Origin: Hymenobacter busanensis
GTDB lineage: Bacteria; Bacteroidota; Bacteroidia; Cytophagales; Hymenobacteraceae
Direction of reading: 5' to 3'
NCBI RefSeq assembly: GCF_008727865.1
Contig: NZ_VTWU01000003.1
Coordinates: forward strand, 372,001-436,000
DNA: 64,000 bases
Position 1 is the first letter of the stretch. Each line of letters starts with the position of its first letter. The position numbers were made by a program, and so were the translations under genes. Positions 29,975-36,138 of this stretch are shown here, piece after piece. The notes below the pieces were generated by a model that saw only the letters and a list, made by a program, of their open reading frames with translations, was not told where the DNA came from and ran no database searches.

Positions 29975-30397
29975 ATGGCTTTTCTCTTTCGAGTGCTTTG
30001 TTGCTTGCTGCTGCCCATTCTGGCCCAGGGGCAGGCAGGCGCTTCTTCCGACGACGGGTTTGTGCGCCGTAACGGTACCATGCACGTGCTGCGCCACGGT
30101 CAGCTGCGGCCACTCACGCGTGAGATTCACCTCCCCAACGGCCGCACCGTCACACCCGACGGCTTTGTGCTCGACCCTGCCGGTGGCCGCACCGAGCTGG
30201 CCGAAGGACAAGGCTGCACGTTGCTGGGGCAGCCCACCGCTGTTCAGCCCCAACCCAACGGCCAGTGGGCACTGCGGCCGGCCATGCCGGCACCTGCGCC
30301 GGCAACGGCGGTAGGCGCCACACCAGCGCGGATAAGCTGGTTGCCGCCCGGCTGGCGCAAAAAATGGCACGGCAAGAAAAAAGGCCGCAAGCATTAA
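29975..30397 (+). CDS. DUF6799-like exported protein
   Basis: A 140-residue protein with a signal peptide (MAFLFRVLCCLLLPILAQGQA). It has the repeated short pattern DGFVRRNGTMHVLRHGQLRPLTREIHLPNGRTVTPDGFVLDPAGGRTELAEGQ, which looks like DUF6799 (two to three short strands of the xxDGxVxxNGxM/L type). The C terminus is basic (WRKKWHGKKKGRKH). Function unknown. The start codon at 29975 gives a good signal peptide. Confidence 0.6.
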   Translation: MAFLFRVLCCLLLPILAQGQAGASSDDGFVRRNGTMHVLRHGQLRPLTREIHLPNGRTVTPDGFVLDPAGGRTELAEGQGCTLLGQPTAVQPQPNGQWALRPAMPAPAPATAVGATPARISWLPPGWRKKWHGKKKGRKH

Positions 30398-30419: not shown

Positions 30420-32378
30420 TTAATCCTGCACCGGGCGGGCGCGGCGGTCGATGGTGAACGTACGGCCGTTTTGGCGCACGGTGGCGCGTCCATCGGCAAA
30501 ATCAGTGGCCGATTCGTAGCGGCCAAATGGCTCGGTGGTGGCGGTGGAGTCGCTTAAGTATTCGGGGTCGATGAACGTGTAGCTCCCCTGCACGCGCACC
30601 CGGGCCAGGCCATTGTGAAACGGGTAGGCTTCTTGAAAAATGCGGGGCCGTTTGGGCAGCGGGCCGGCCCCGCTCAGGTAAAACCAGCCCCGGCGGTCCA
30701 GCACCGGCGCAAAGCCCTCGGCAAAATCGTAGGCGTTGTAGAAATAGGCGTCGAATTCGGTTCCGTCTTCGTCAATGAACGTGTACACGTCGCCGATGCG
30801 GACCCGCGCGAAGCCTTCGTGATAGGGGTTTAGGGCGTCGTAGGCGGGCGCTACTACTTCCTGGCCTTGCTCGTCGATCAAGCCAAAAGCGCCGTCGCGC
30901 TCCACTACCGCCCTGCCTTGCTCAAATGGCTGCACCGAGGCGTACCGGGCCTCGATGATGGGCTTGCCGTCCTCGGCAAATCCCCACCGGCCATTTTCCT
31001 GGTAGGGGGTGGGCACTGAGGTCAAAAACCGGCTCAGTACCCACAGCAGCAAGAGCAGCCCGATGCCGCTGGCCAGCCACAGCCCGCGCGTTTGAGCCGA
31101 CTGACCCAGCGTCAACTGCCGGGCGAAGTGCGTTACGCGGCTGGTGGCCTTCTTTGATATAGTCCCCAAAGTCGCTGCCAGCCCAGGTGCAGAAGCAGCC
31201 GCTGGGGCGGCTGAGGCGCCGGACGGCGCAGGGCGGGGTGGCGTGGGGGCGGCAACAGACGGTGCCGCCGCGGCCGGCGGAGCAACGGACTCCGCAGCCG
31301 CAGGGGCACCAGCTACCGGCTGCAACTGTTGAATCAGCCGCTCCAGGGCCTGGATCTTGCCGTCCAGCTCTTGGTTGCGCTGCTGCCAGTCGTGCTGCGA
31401 CTGCCGAATATTCTGCTCGACCTGTTCTTTGGCCTGGGTTTCGGCCCGGAGGCGCACCTGCAGCTCGGCCACCTGCGGAGCTGCGGCCGATTGGGCCTGA
31501 GCCAGTTCGGTGCGCAGCTGCGCAATGCTTCGTTCGCGTTCGGCTTCGCGGGCTTCCAAGGCCCGTAGCTGGGCATCCACTTGGTGTTGAAGGTTGGCTT
31601 GCAGCTCCTCCAGCTCGTGTTTGCGGTCTTCGCCCCGGGAGGCCAGCTCGTAGGTGTCGGCCGGCAGGTCGTCCACGTCTTCGGCGCCCAACCAGCGCCA
31701 CAGCTGCCGCGCTGCCAGCTGCACCGACCCGCCCAGGGTGCCCGCGCCAACTTCCGGAGCTGCGGCCGGCACCGCAGCTACATCGGGCGCCGCTGGCCAC
31801 CGGGCCGCCAACTGGTTGGCCAGCTCCAGGATATCGGCGGCGGTGAGGTCGATGGCGGGCGTGGCCAGCTGGGCCAGGCGGCGGGGCAAACGGCCTAGCT
31901 GCGGCAGCAGCTGGAACTGGGCCGAGCCGGGTTCGGCAGCCATGCTGGCTTCCACATCGGGCCCAAACGTGAGCGGCGCCATTGGTACCAGCAGCCCCGT
32001 TACAAACTGCGCATTCACAGACTCGGCGGGCAACAACGGCTCCAGCAAACGCAAAAAAGTGTCGCGCTGCTGCCGGAAGGCTATAAACGGGTTGTCGGCA
32101 CCCGCGGCTGACAACGGGAGGCCTTCGAGCAGCCACGCGCCGTGGCCGAACGCGGGAATGCGCAACTGCCCGCCCTGGGGTTGGAGCGTGAGCAGGGTGA
32201 TGCTATGCGGGCGTATCACGGCCGCGTCGAGTGCGGTGTCTGCGGTCAGCGGAATTCGGCCCAGCAGCAGAGTAGGCGTGTCGTCGGGCGGCAGGCCGGC
32301 CAGGGTCGCACGCATCGCATCAAAAGCCGCTTGGCGAGCTGCGTCGGGGAAGGGAGAAGCGAGGAGAACGTGCAGCAT
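30420..32378 (-). CDS. NERD-like domain / coiled coil / transmembrane / WG-repeat fusion protein
   Basis: A 652-residue protein with a rare layout. Residues about 30-135 resemble a nuclease-related (NERD-like) domain (LLGRIPLTADTALDAAVIRPHSITLLTLQP, then FGHGAWLLEG), though catalytic residues are not clear. Residues about 250-355 form a coiled coil rich in Gln and Glu. A Pro/Ala linker (355-400) leads to one membrane segment (433-453, LWLASGIGLLLLLWVLSR). After it, residues 459-640 hold about four WG-type repeats (NGRWGFAEDGKPI, DGAFGLIDEQGQEV, DVYTFIDEDG, RGWFYLS), which form a beta structure. The start at 32378 gives the domain its natural N terminus. It would put the repeats on one side of a membrane and the coiled coil on the other. 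Function unknown. Confidence 0.65.
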   Translation of the reverse strand: MLHVLLASPFPDAARQAAFDAMRATLAGLPPDDTPTLLLGRIPLTADTALDAAVIRPHSITLLTLQPQGGQLRIPAFGHGAWLLEGLPLSAAGADNPFIAFRQQRDTFLRLLEPLLPAESVNAQFVTGLLVPMAPLTFGPDVEASMAAEPGSAQFQLLPQLGRLPRRLAQLATPAIDLTAADILELANQLAARWPAAPDVAAVPAAAPEVGAGTLGGSVQLAARQLWRWLGAEDVDDLPADTYELASRGEDRKHELEELQANLQHQVDAQLRALEAREAERERSIAQLRTELAQAQSAAAPQVAELQVRLRAETQAKEQVEQNIRQSQHDWQQRNQELDGKIQALERLIQQLQPVAGAPAAAESVAPPAAAAPSVAAPTPPRPAPSGASAAPAAASAPGLAATLGTISKKATSRVTHFARQLTLGQSAQTRGLWLASGIGLLLLLWVLSRFLTSVPTPYQENGRWGFAEDGKPIIEARYASVQPFEQGRAVVERDGAFGLIDEQGQEVVAPAYDALNPYHEGFARVRIGDVYTFIDEDGTEFDAYFYNAYDFAEGFAPVLDRRGWFYLSGAGPLPKRPRIFQEAYPFHNGLARVRVQGSYTFIDPEYLSDSTATTEPFGRYESATDFADGRATVRQNGRTFTIDRRARPVQD

Positions 32379-32502: not shown

Positions 32503-32907
32503 ATGGACTCGCTCAACCCCACTCCCGCACACCAACCCGAATTTCACGCGCCGCTCGAAGTAACCGACGGGCAGCATTCGGCTTTGATAGACGACACCCT
32601 GGCGCTGCTCAACGACGGCGTGCCGAGCAAGGAAAATGAGTACGGAATGCGCGAAATTGAGCGGTGGGCCGAGGTGCTGCGCGCCACCGAAAAGCCCGGC
32701 CTTGCCAAAATCATTCAGGCCCTCGACAACCTGCGCGAGCAACTCACCGGCGACGGTGCAACCGAAGCCCACGACCTGGCCGAAACCCTGGCCACGCTGG
32801 GGGCCGAAACCAGCAAAGTGGCCGACGAAGCTGCGGGCGGCTACGGCCCGCCCCTGGCGCAGCTAGGCAAGTTGCTGATCAAGATGGGCTCCACGCTCTC
32901 GCGCTAG
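32503..32907 (+). CDS. Uncharacterised acidic helical protein
   Basis: A 134-residue soluble protein of unknown function. It is divergent from the WG-repeat gene, with 124 bases between the two starts. Visible features are an acidic composition, helical stretches (ERWAEVLRATEKPGLAKIIQALDNLREQL and AHDLAETLATLGAETSKVADEAA) and a Gly-rich turn (GGYGPPLAQLG). No catalytic motif or signal peptide is visible. It may be a small regulatory or stress protein; nothing further can be supported. Confidence 0.6.
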   Translation: MDSLNPTPAHQPEFHAPLEVTDGQHSALIDDTLALLNDGVPSKENEYGMREIERWAEVLRATEKPGLAKIIQALDNLREQLTGDGATEAHDLAETLATLGAETSKVADEAAGGYGPPLAQLGKLLIKMGSTLSR

Positions 32908-32983: not shown

Positions 32984-33994
32984 ATGTCCGCTTCCGCCTC
33001 CCACTTCGCCCTCTACGACCCCTTCGCCCGCATGCAATTCGGCTTGCCGAACTGCTTCCTTTGCGGTGCGCCGCTCGATCCGGCCGTCGATACCATCCCG
33101 GTTTTTGCCGATTGGCTGCTTGAGCGCTACCAGCTGGCCGAGCGCCCCATTCAGATGCTCGACCAAAGCACGAGCACCTTCGCCGAAACGCGCATTCCGT
33201 GCTGCCCCACTTGCCGCACCCAGCACGTAGAGCCGCTCGAAGCGCAGGTAGCCGCCCACACCGCCGCCAGCCCCGAAGGCCTGCGTGAGCTGGACAGCCA
33301 GACGCTGTTTCTGTGGTTGGGCAAAATGTTCTACGGCATCTTCGTCAACGAGCTGGAACGCGAAAAAGCGCCGCTGATTAAGCCGCGCTATCCGTTGTCC
33401 GAAAACCGGGCGCTGTTCACGCGCTTCCGCAGCTTTTTCCAGGTGCTACAGGCTCTGCGCGTGCCCATGCGCTACGACGATTTCACGCCGGGCTCCATGT
33501 TCTTGCTGAACGTGGCCACCGGCCCCGACGACCCCGCCTTCGCTTACGACGACGACTTGGCCACGATGGTCTTCAGCATCCGCTTGGGCAACGTGGCCGT
33601 CGTCAGCTGCCTGCTCGACAACGCCATTCTGCTCGACGTGATGCGGCGCGTATACGACGACGCGCGCCCCCGGCCGCTGCACCCGGTGCAGCTGGCCGAA
33701 TTCAAGGCGCGCGTCTATTACGGAGCGTATCTGCTGAATGCGGTGCCGGAATACTTTCCCCGGCCCGTGCAACCGGGCGACGAGGAACTGGTGATGGATA
33801 CGTTCCTCGACGATATTACCGGCGTGGTGTTCAATCCGTGGCAGAACTCGGGCTACGTGCAGGCCTTGGAAGACCTCTGGCGCCCGTGGAATATTGGTAT
33901 AGCCGATATTTTACGAAATCCGGCGGAGCCGCTCAGCTATTTATACGATGCCGAGGGGCAGCCGCGGACGCTAACGCAATTCCCAGAGGCCTAA
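32984..33994 (+). CDS. Uncharacterised protein with two CxxC motifs
   Basis: A 336-residue cytoplasmic protein. The N-terminal part has CFLC (Cys24, Cys27) and CCPTC (Cys73-77), together a plausible zinc site. These frame the segment VDTIPVFADWLLERYQL, which resembles an HNH-like zinc-ribbon arrangement, but the histidine and asparagine of an HNH nuclease are not evident. Residues 90-336 are mixed helix and strand with no recognised motif. The start at 32984 follows the TACTTTTG element. The stop codon overlaps that of the converging 3D-domain gene (CTAA). Confidence 0.55.
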   Translation: MSASASHFALYDPFARMQFGLPNCFLCGAPLDPAVDTIPVFADWLLERYQLAERPIQMLDQSTSTFAETRIPCCPTCRTQHVEPLEAQVAAHTAASPEGLRELDSQTLFLWLGKMFYGIFVNELEREKAPLIKPRYPLSENRALFTRFRSFFQVLQALRVPMRYDDFTPGSMFLLNVATGPDDPAFAYDDDLATMVFSIRLGNVAVVSCLLDNAILLDVMRRVYDDARPRPLHPVQLAEFKARVYYGAYLLNAVPEYFPRPVQPGDEELVMDTFLDDITGVVFNPWQNSGYVQALEDLWRPWNIGIADILRNPAEPLSYLYDAEGQPRTLTQFPEA

Positions 33995-34524: not shown

Positions 34525-34941
34525 GTCCGTTGGGTTCGTGGCTCCCGCTTACGCCTGAGGAGAATGAGGCCCCACCGTCGCGCGGTGGGCAGAAGGGCTT
34601 CAACTTGATTTCGGCCCATAAGGTTCCCGTTGAGCTTGATCAAGAAAGGCTAAGTTATTCTTTTGAATTAATTAAGCAATATTAATTATTGTAAAAGTTT
34701 TAAAAAAGGGCTTAAAATGGCCATAAAAGCTGCTTTTGTCATAATCGTCGGCGTCGGGCAATTAGCGGTTCAGTTGGCCGAAAGCCGACCGAGTTTGAGC
34801 GCGCCGGAAGGAAACGAGCCTCGGTTCGGCCGCATTTCAATGGCTAACCAAAGGAACTTGGCCGGCAGCAAGACGTACAGCCTACACCCACGTGTTTCTG
34901 TTGCCGCTACGGCCCCAATTCATTCCACAACCCGTCGACTC
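34525..34941. other. Intergenic region with an AT-rich block
   Basis: No gene is supported in these 417 bases. The stretch 34650-34730 is conspicuously AT-rich against the GC-rich background and includes runs such as TTAATTATTG and AAAAAAGGG. It probably holds the regulatory region of the minus-strand 3D gene, the plus-strand lipoprotein gene at 34942, or both. No exact -7 element was found. An in-frame ATG at 34717 exists but the lipobox argues for the start at 34942. Confidence 0.5.
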
Positions 34942-36138
34942 ATGCACATTTTACCTTCTTTGCCGGCGCTGCCCATCGCCCGGGCAAGCCTCGTTCTCGG
35001 AGTTGCTCTGCTGACTCTGGGATGCTCCAACAACAACGCCCCCGATTCGGCGGCTGGCACCACGCCGGCCGACAGCACTGCCGTAGCCGGAGCTGCTCCG
35101 GTTGCGCCCGCCAACTCGCCCTTGCAGGTAGTAGCTGAATTGCGCGAGCCGCAGTTTGTGGGCGTTGCCGTCACCCCCGACAGCCGCATCTTCCTCGTGT
35201 CGCCGCGCTGGGACTACAACCCCGTGAATCCCATTGCCGAAGTAGGGCCCAACAACACCTTGAAGCCCTACCCCGATGCCAGCTGGTGCACTTGGAACGA
35301 CTCGGTGCGCAACGAGCCCGAGAAGCACTGGATCTGCCCCCAGGCGGCTTACGTCGACCGCAGCGGCATGCTGTGGGTCCTCGACCCCGCCGCGCCCGGC
35401 CTCAAATACACAGTGCCCGGCGGCCCCAAGCTGGTCAAAATCGACCCAAAGATCAATCAGGTGGTGCAAACCATCCGCTTCGACCAAACCGTGGCCCCGC
35501 GCAAATCATACCTCAACGACGTGCGCATCGACCTCGACAATAACTACGCCTACATCACCGAATCGAGCCAGGGCGGCATTGTGGTCGTCGATCTGAAAAC
35601 CCAGAAGGCCCGGCGGGTGCTCACCACGCACCCCTCGGTGAAAGCCGAACCCATTCGGCTGAACGTGGAAGGCAACCCCATGCTCGACCCGATGGGCAAG
35701 CCCGCCAAGCTGCATTCCGACGGCATTGCCCTGAGTGTCGACAACAAGCATCTTTACTACCACGCCGTGACGGGCTACACGCTTTACCGCATTCCTACCG
35801 CCGCGCTGCGCAATGCCGCGCTCAGCGAAGAGCAGCTGGGGCAGCAAGTTGAAAACCTGGGCAAAACGCCGGCCTGCGACGGGCTGGAAATCGATAAGGC
35901 TGGTAACGTTTACCTTACCGCCATCGAGCAGAACGCGGTAGTGCGCCGCACGCCCGACGGCAAACTCGAAGAGTTGGCCAAAGACCCGCGCCTGCAGTGG
36001 CCCGATACTTACGCCCTCACAGCAGATGGCACCTTATACGTCACGGCATCGGCCATCCACAAAACCCCAACGTGGAACAAGGGCGTCGGCAAGCAAAACC
36101 AGCCGTATCGACTGTTTAAAATGAAGCTACCGCAGTAG
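34942..36138 (+). CDS. Major royal jelly / Yellow-type beta-propeller lipoprotein
   Basis: A 398-residue lipoprotein with lipobox LTLGC (Cys28) and a Ser/Ala/Thr linker (to about 60). The rest is a beta-propeller of the Yellow/major royal jelly type: FVGVAVTPDSRIFLVSPRW, QAAYVDRSGMLWVLDPAAPG, LNDVRIDLDNNYAYITESSQGGIVVVDL, LHSDGIALSVDNKHLYYHAVTGYTLYRI, DGLEIDKAGNVYLTAIEQNAVVRR. In bacteria such proteins may bind or lactonise small molecules (SMP-30-like), but no member has a fixed substrate. A perfect hairpin follows. The ATG at 34942 is chosen for the lipobox. Confidence 0.85.
   Translation: MHILPSLPALPIARASLVLGVALLTLGCSNNNAPDSAAGTTPADSTAVAGAAPVAPANSPLQVVAELREPQFVGVAVTPDSRIFLVSPRWDYNPVNPIAEVGPNNTLKPYPDASWCTWNDSVRNEPEKHWICPQAAYVDRSGMLWVLDPAAPGLKYTVPGGPKLVKIDPKINQVVQTIRFDQTVAPRKSYLNDVRIDLDNNYAYITESSQGGIVVVDLKTQKARRVLTTHPSVKAEPIRLNVEGNPMLDPMGKPAKLHSDGIALSVDNKHLYYHAVTGYTLYRIPTAALRNAALSEEQLGQQVENLGKTPACDGLEIDKAGNVYLTAIEQNAVVRRTPDGKLEELAKDPRLQWPDTYALTADGTLYVTASAIHKTPTWNKGVGKQNQPYRLFKMKLPQ

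Follow-up and report, generated by a model that had tools for sequence, protein, structure and literature searches.

An ExK-less NERD-like domain joined to WG repeats in a membrane protein family of the Hymenobacter group

A lineage-specific architecture with two sister types

A single gene in the window, the whole 64,000-nucleotide stretch of DNA analysed here, encodes a NERD-like domain, a long helix of apparent coiled-coil type, a Pro/Ala-rich linker, one membrane segment and WG repeats in one chain (Table 1), and this architecture is real, conserved and lineage-specific. The order of the parts had been proposed in an original prediction made from the letters of the window, and it was borne out by orthologues with the same layout: comparison with related genomes found the same reading frame and the same order of parts at syntenic loci. 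Because frame and order are conserved in orthologues of the same gene neighbourhood, the architecture is not a product of chance. Close relatives of the source genome include Hymenobacter and Solirubrum. The reading favoured here, with a probability of about 0.5, is that the protein serves as an envelope-spanning, single-pass scaffold that works in the manner of SmdA.

Table 1. Features of the gene and its product, with positions in the window and the basis for each assignment
Feature	Residues	Position in window	Strand	Basis
Whole gene	652 aa	30420..32378	(-)	ATG at 32378, stop codon 30420-30422
NERD-type (PD-(D/E)xK) domain without ExK, Asp51 kept	1-195	31794..32378	(-)	Pfam, profile, PADLOC, AlphaFold, BFVD, motif count
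Trp-rich helix QLWRWLGAED	about 216-240	31659..31733	(-)	Invariant residues in family alignment
Long helix, tentatively coiled-coil-type	247-353	31320..31640	(-)	Composition and periodicity
Pro/Ala-rich linker, poorly conserved, basic at its end	354-432	31083..31319	(-)	Composition, conservation, charge
Single predicted membrane segment	433-455	31014..31082	(-)	Hydropathy and positive-inside count
WG-repeat domain, predicted periplasmic, propeller-like	459-652	30423..31004	(-)	PF14903, AlphaFold, Foldseek

Family members were matched in 103 of 200 genomes of the bacterial family, in two of its six genera. A scan with the signature motif, which could find this protein family only, covered 84,980 species with one genome each and returned 55 loci, all of them in Hymenobacter-group bacteria. 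Each part of the protein is known in its own right; in the searches made, the order of the parts, and the combination of an apparently inactivated membrane NERD domain with WG repeats predicted to be periplasmic, were not found outside the Hymenobacter group, a statement that extends to those searches and is not a claim of wider absence.

Sorting by length gave 30 loci of type A, which carries WG repeats, and 25 of type B, with products of about 500 residues. The type B sisters (all Hymenobacter loci, for example L119 and L123) share everything from the NERD-like domain and Trp-rich helix through the coil and linker to the membrane segment, with a short, mostly acidic and probably disordered tail in place of the WG repeats. 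A maximum-likelihood tree was built from the front that both types share; its root is not fixed, and types A and B lie on opposite sides of one branch (support 99/93). This single branch implies that the WG domain was gained or lost once. The two types form a built-in natural comparison, in which a shared front is joined to different periplasmic ends.

Type A genes occupy one conserved neighbourhood, the main neighbours of which are common to 26-28 of the 29 other loci, and type B genes are found in other chromosomal places, with catalase or rsgA among their neighbours. In both types the gene order looks inherited and does not look like a functional operon; the conserved neighbours are housekeeping genes and offered no functional lead.

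The NERD-like domain has lost its ExK motif

Direct scans of the window protein itself gave no Pfam or NCBIfam match to NERD, and the relationship was recovered through its relatives. The Pfam NERD model (PF08378) was matched by 7 of 19 family members (best E=9.5e-5), and the G011 orthologue exceeded the curated cut-off, with 22.9 as against 22.1 bits (G011:C22:233729-234016). When a family profile was searched against 395 genomes of the phylum, it recovered the members of the family together with two other proteins (E=1.3e-21 and 2.7e-10), both of which are NERD-helicase fusions by Pfam. The window protein also matched the NERD part of the PADLOC model PDC-M16A (E=1.4e-5, model positions about 10-190). 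Most NERD matches of an order-wide search were short proteins of about 115-150 residues, probably of the UPF0102/YraN type, and these were set aside.

An AlphaFold model computed on 56 aligned sequences had a mean pLDDT of 89.6, rising to about 96 for residues 1-190. The sole significant match of the NERD-like model in BFVD was a Nuclease-related domain protein (E=9.8e-5, probability 1.00, TM 0.47/0.44), and a fold search of the PDB gave no significant match; its better-probability, non-significant rows 1y88, 1xmx and Can2, which we take to be PD-(D/E)xK proteins, are not leaned on here. Sequence searches of the PDB with the NERD-like profile and with the WG domain returned nothing usable, and one canonical NERD domain that was tried found no sequence relative there either. 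By profile similarity and by its predicted alpha/beta fold, the domain is a member of the NERD superfamily. The NERD-like N-terminus of the original prediction is thereby upheld, with profile similarity coming from relatives, the family profile and PADLOC and with the structure model in agreement.

A match to a PADLOC model raises the question of whether the protein descends from NERD-helicase systems and serves in anti-phage defence. The model has 892-917 positions, and no full-length match was obtained; the NERD part of the protein alone aligns, covering positions 10-190 of 892, and the N-terminal part of the same model matches the NERD domains of both ordinary NERD-helicases with E=1e-40 or better. 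The gene also keeps its chromosomal place in related genomes, surrounded by housekeeping genes, which is not the setting of a mobile defence island. Membership of a defence system was rejected on these two grounds, and a defence origin of this kind is considered extremely improbable.

The family was aligned with the two NERD-helicases (G211 and G276; L138 and L139), and the motif residues were counted in 56 sequences, with L049 and L075 left out of both the motif and the charge counts. The NERD-helicases have the same fold along about 200 residues and share with the window family the motif Asp, Trp82, the NP motif (positions 96-97) and the core glycines. They differ in that they keep the D...(E/D)xK motif and are fused to helicases, whereas the window family has neither ExK nor helicase and adds the Trp-rich helix, the coil and the membrane segment. 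Asp51 was kept in 56/56 sequences and (E/D)xK in 0/56; at the former Glu position L, Q or V predominates, and at the former Lys position V, L, T, I or H. The domain contains no other invariant Lys, and its only near-invariant basic residues in the 56 sequences are R56 and R167. Because the ExK half is lost throughout and the Asp is kept throughout, the domain would, judged by sequence, be a pseudo-nuclease.

The original prediction had named a nuclease-like or scaffold part. The nuclease-like fold stands, and since the catalytic ExK is missing from every sequence counted, a scaffold is the likelier role of the two. Active residues can migrate in the PD-(D/E)xK superfamily, and together with the retained fold, Asp51 and NP motif this would favour an active membrane-anchored nuclease whose catalytic Lys or Glu has moved elsewhere in the protein. 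The complete loss of the ExK Lys, with no other invariant Lys in the domain to replace it, and a neighbourhood that is neither toxin-like nor defence-related speak against such an enzyme, which is judged very improbable. A further comparison is a 356-residue protein of G053, from the same taxonomic order (L049:1345-2415, (-)), which also combines a NERD domain with coil-like stretches and a hydrophobic segment; it differs from the window protein in that its NERD domain lies at the C-terminus, reversing the order of parts, retains an intact ExK (IDHLLISPSGIFLIETKN) and is not accompanied by WG repeats.

The NERD-like domain is acidic, with a median net charge of -10 and a pI of about 4.8, as compared to -4 for the two helicase NERD domains, and this acidity suits protein binding better than DNA binding. 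It bears on a reading in which the protein ties the nucleoid, or some other nucleic acid, to the membrane, the inactive fold still binding DNA or RNA and the WG domain controlling the anchor. Proteins with the PD-(D/E)xK fold often act on nucleic acid, all 56 sequences keep the Asp, and the best-probability PDB matches, none of them significant, include PD-(D/E)xK nucleases. A link to DNA has also been floated, as speculation, for SmdA (PMC9040797). The charge of the domain, more acidic than that of the NERD-helicases compared, argues against a tether, and the basic stretch of the protein adjoins the membrane, where the positive-inside rule explains it better; a nucleic-acid tether is on balance unlikely.

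Membrane topology and the WG domain

Between the NERD-like domain and the coil lies a helix, QLWRWLGAED, that is nearly invariant in both types and constitutes a signature of the family; W227, W229, G231, A232 and D234 are invariant in the family alignment, and the helix was not seen in the NERD-helicases of the mixed alignment. The region that follows is charged and of helix type, with 3 Pro/Gly per 106 residues and a weak 3.5-residue periodicity (p about 0.01), and on composition and periodicity it is tentatively assigned as coiled-coil-type. Its resemblance to SMC, Rad50, JetC and DndD was rejected as weak, low-complexity similarity. Pro and Ala make up 64% of residues 353-405, and the linker has a column conservation of 0.33 and a net charge of +5 over residues 353-432.

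Topology was judged by eye, hydropathy and charge count. The Kyte-Doolittle maximum of 1.85 falls on 19 residues from position 435, and hydropathy gives one hydrophobic segment, as the original prediction had it. In 49/56 sequences Lys and Arg are commoner before this segment than after it, an excess that places the N-terminus inside and agrees with the in/out arrangement first proposed. Many other WG proteins in the source and related genomes start with a signal-peptide-like stretch, and a WG protein of Pseudomonas has been described with a lipoprotein signal peptide (PMC8855297). The charge bias, these N-terminal stretches and the Pseudomonas case agree in pointing to a WG domain on the outside, and the protein is most probably a single-pass inner-membrane protein with a cytoplasmic N-terminus and periplasmic WG repeats. 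The original prediction had staked its architecture on NERD similarity in profile searches and on a predicted membrane segment, and both were found.

The last 194 residues clearly belong to the WG_beta_rep family (PF14903), which matched the window protein in four stretches with E=2.5e-27 and 95 bits against a cut-off of 25.6. The usual WG proteins of these genomes stand alone, whereas here the WG domain hangs on a membrane-bound candidate scaffold. The window family offers a setting for testing the role of WG repeats. The Argonaute GW/WG repeats also described in the literature are unrelated.

The AlphaFold model of the WG part (mean pLDDT 95.2) is all-beta, with hairpins in succession, and its Foldseek matches are beta-propellers: BamB, Hsv2, BLIP-II, PorZ and sensor ectodomains, including those of Bacteroides. 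These matches had E-values of about 1e-4 to 1e-3 with TM-scores of about 0.4-0.5 and rmsd values of 6-12, and given such modest TM-scores and such rmsd values, the WG part is called a predicted propeller-like beta domain and no further. Within type A, conservation was 0.73 for the WG domain, 0.68 for the coil and 0.68 for the NERD-like part; with the WG domain and coil thus roughly level with the NERD-like part, each of the three appears to be important.

The original prediction had also spoken of a membrane-side sensor. An ectodomain, one membrane segment and a coiled coil are what would be expected of a transmembrane sensor, in which WG binds an outside ligand and the coil relays a change to a NERD-like head controlling a cytoplasmic enzyme, and the Bacteroides sensor ectodomains among the structural matches of the WG model fit such a role. 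The protein has no output domain of known activity, however, and no conserved signalling neighbour, and the long, poorly conserved Pro/Ala linker between coil and membrane would be a poor mechanical relay. A sensor of this type is regarded as quite unlikely.

A possible scaffold across the envelope

The closest functional parallel to the scaffold reading is SmdA of Staphylococcus aureus, a single-helix membrane protein whose cytoplasmic NERD-like domain is short of several conserved NERD residues, which binds PBPs and EzrA as interaction partners and without which division fails; according to its authors, the role of NERD domains in bacteria had not been studied before that work (PMC9040797). 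SmdA differs from the window protein in its size (302 residues), in its N-terminal membrane helix and in having neither WG repeats nor a Pro/Ala linker. The likeness, judged by published layout, is one of kind and not of descent.

In an SmdA-like scaffold, the cytoplasmic NERD domain, its catalytic ExK lost, would act as a docking module whose partner is most likely a protein. The Trp-rich helix and coiled coil may oligomerise the protein and keep the head off the membrane, and one membrane helix would take the chain across, allowing the periplasmic ring of WG hairpins to bind a partner in the envelope; several of the propellers that the WG model resembles (BamB, BLIP-II, PorZ and sensor ectodomains) bind proteins. 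The protein would in this way link a component of the periplasm or wall with one in the cytoplasm, as SmdA does for proteins of the septum. Several points weigh against the scaffold: a domain that is acidic overall can still hold a local basic patch, the order of parts in SmdA is reversed and lacks WG, and the housekeeping neighbourhood gives no functional link. Since type B has no WG domain, the members of the family cannot all have one and the same periplasmic function.

NERD domains are widespread, and the window family appears, from its sequences, to be a second case of a membrane NERD protein unable to work as a standard nuclease. It is possible, though doubtful, that this Hymenobacter-specific family of inactivated membrane NERD proteins is a trans-envelope coupler with exchangeable periplasmic ends (the WG propeller in type A and the acidic tail in type B), and that NERD turned from nuclease to envelope scaffold independently in Bacteroidota and staphylococci.

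The divergent neighbour at 32503-32907 (+), whose kind could not be named in the original prediction, indeed had no match above cut-off in Pfam, NCBIfam or PADLOC. It encodes 134 residues, mostly charged and helix-like, and is 62-77% identical in relatives. At two type A loci, in G011 and G024, the stretches examined contained no copy; it is therefore no obligate partner of the gene. Beyond it, at 32984-33994 (+), lies a gene for a 336-residue protein with the Cys pattern CFLCG ... CCPTC, which looks zinc-binding or HNH-type at its start; it had no Pfam, NCBIfam or PADLOC match and is 57-75% identical in relatives, where it occupies the same place. On the other side, the gene at 29975-30397 (+) encodes a DUF6799 domain (E=3.8e-10) and stands beside type A genes, including those of G011 and G024. 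The conserved neighbourhood also contains, at 34717-36138 (+), a gene for a putative exported protein resembling Major royal jelly protein (PF03022, E=2e-27).
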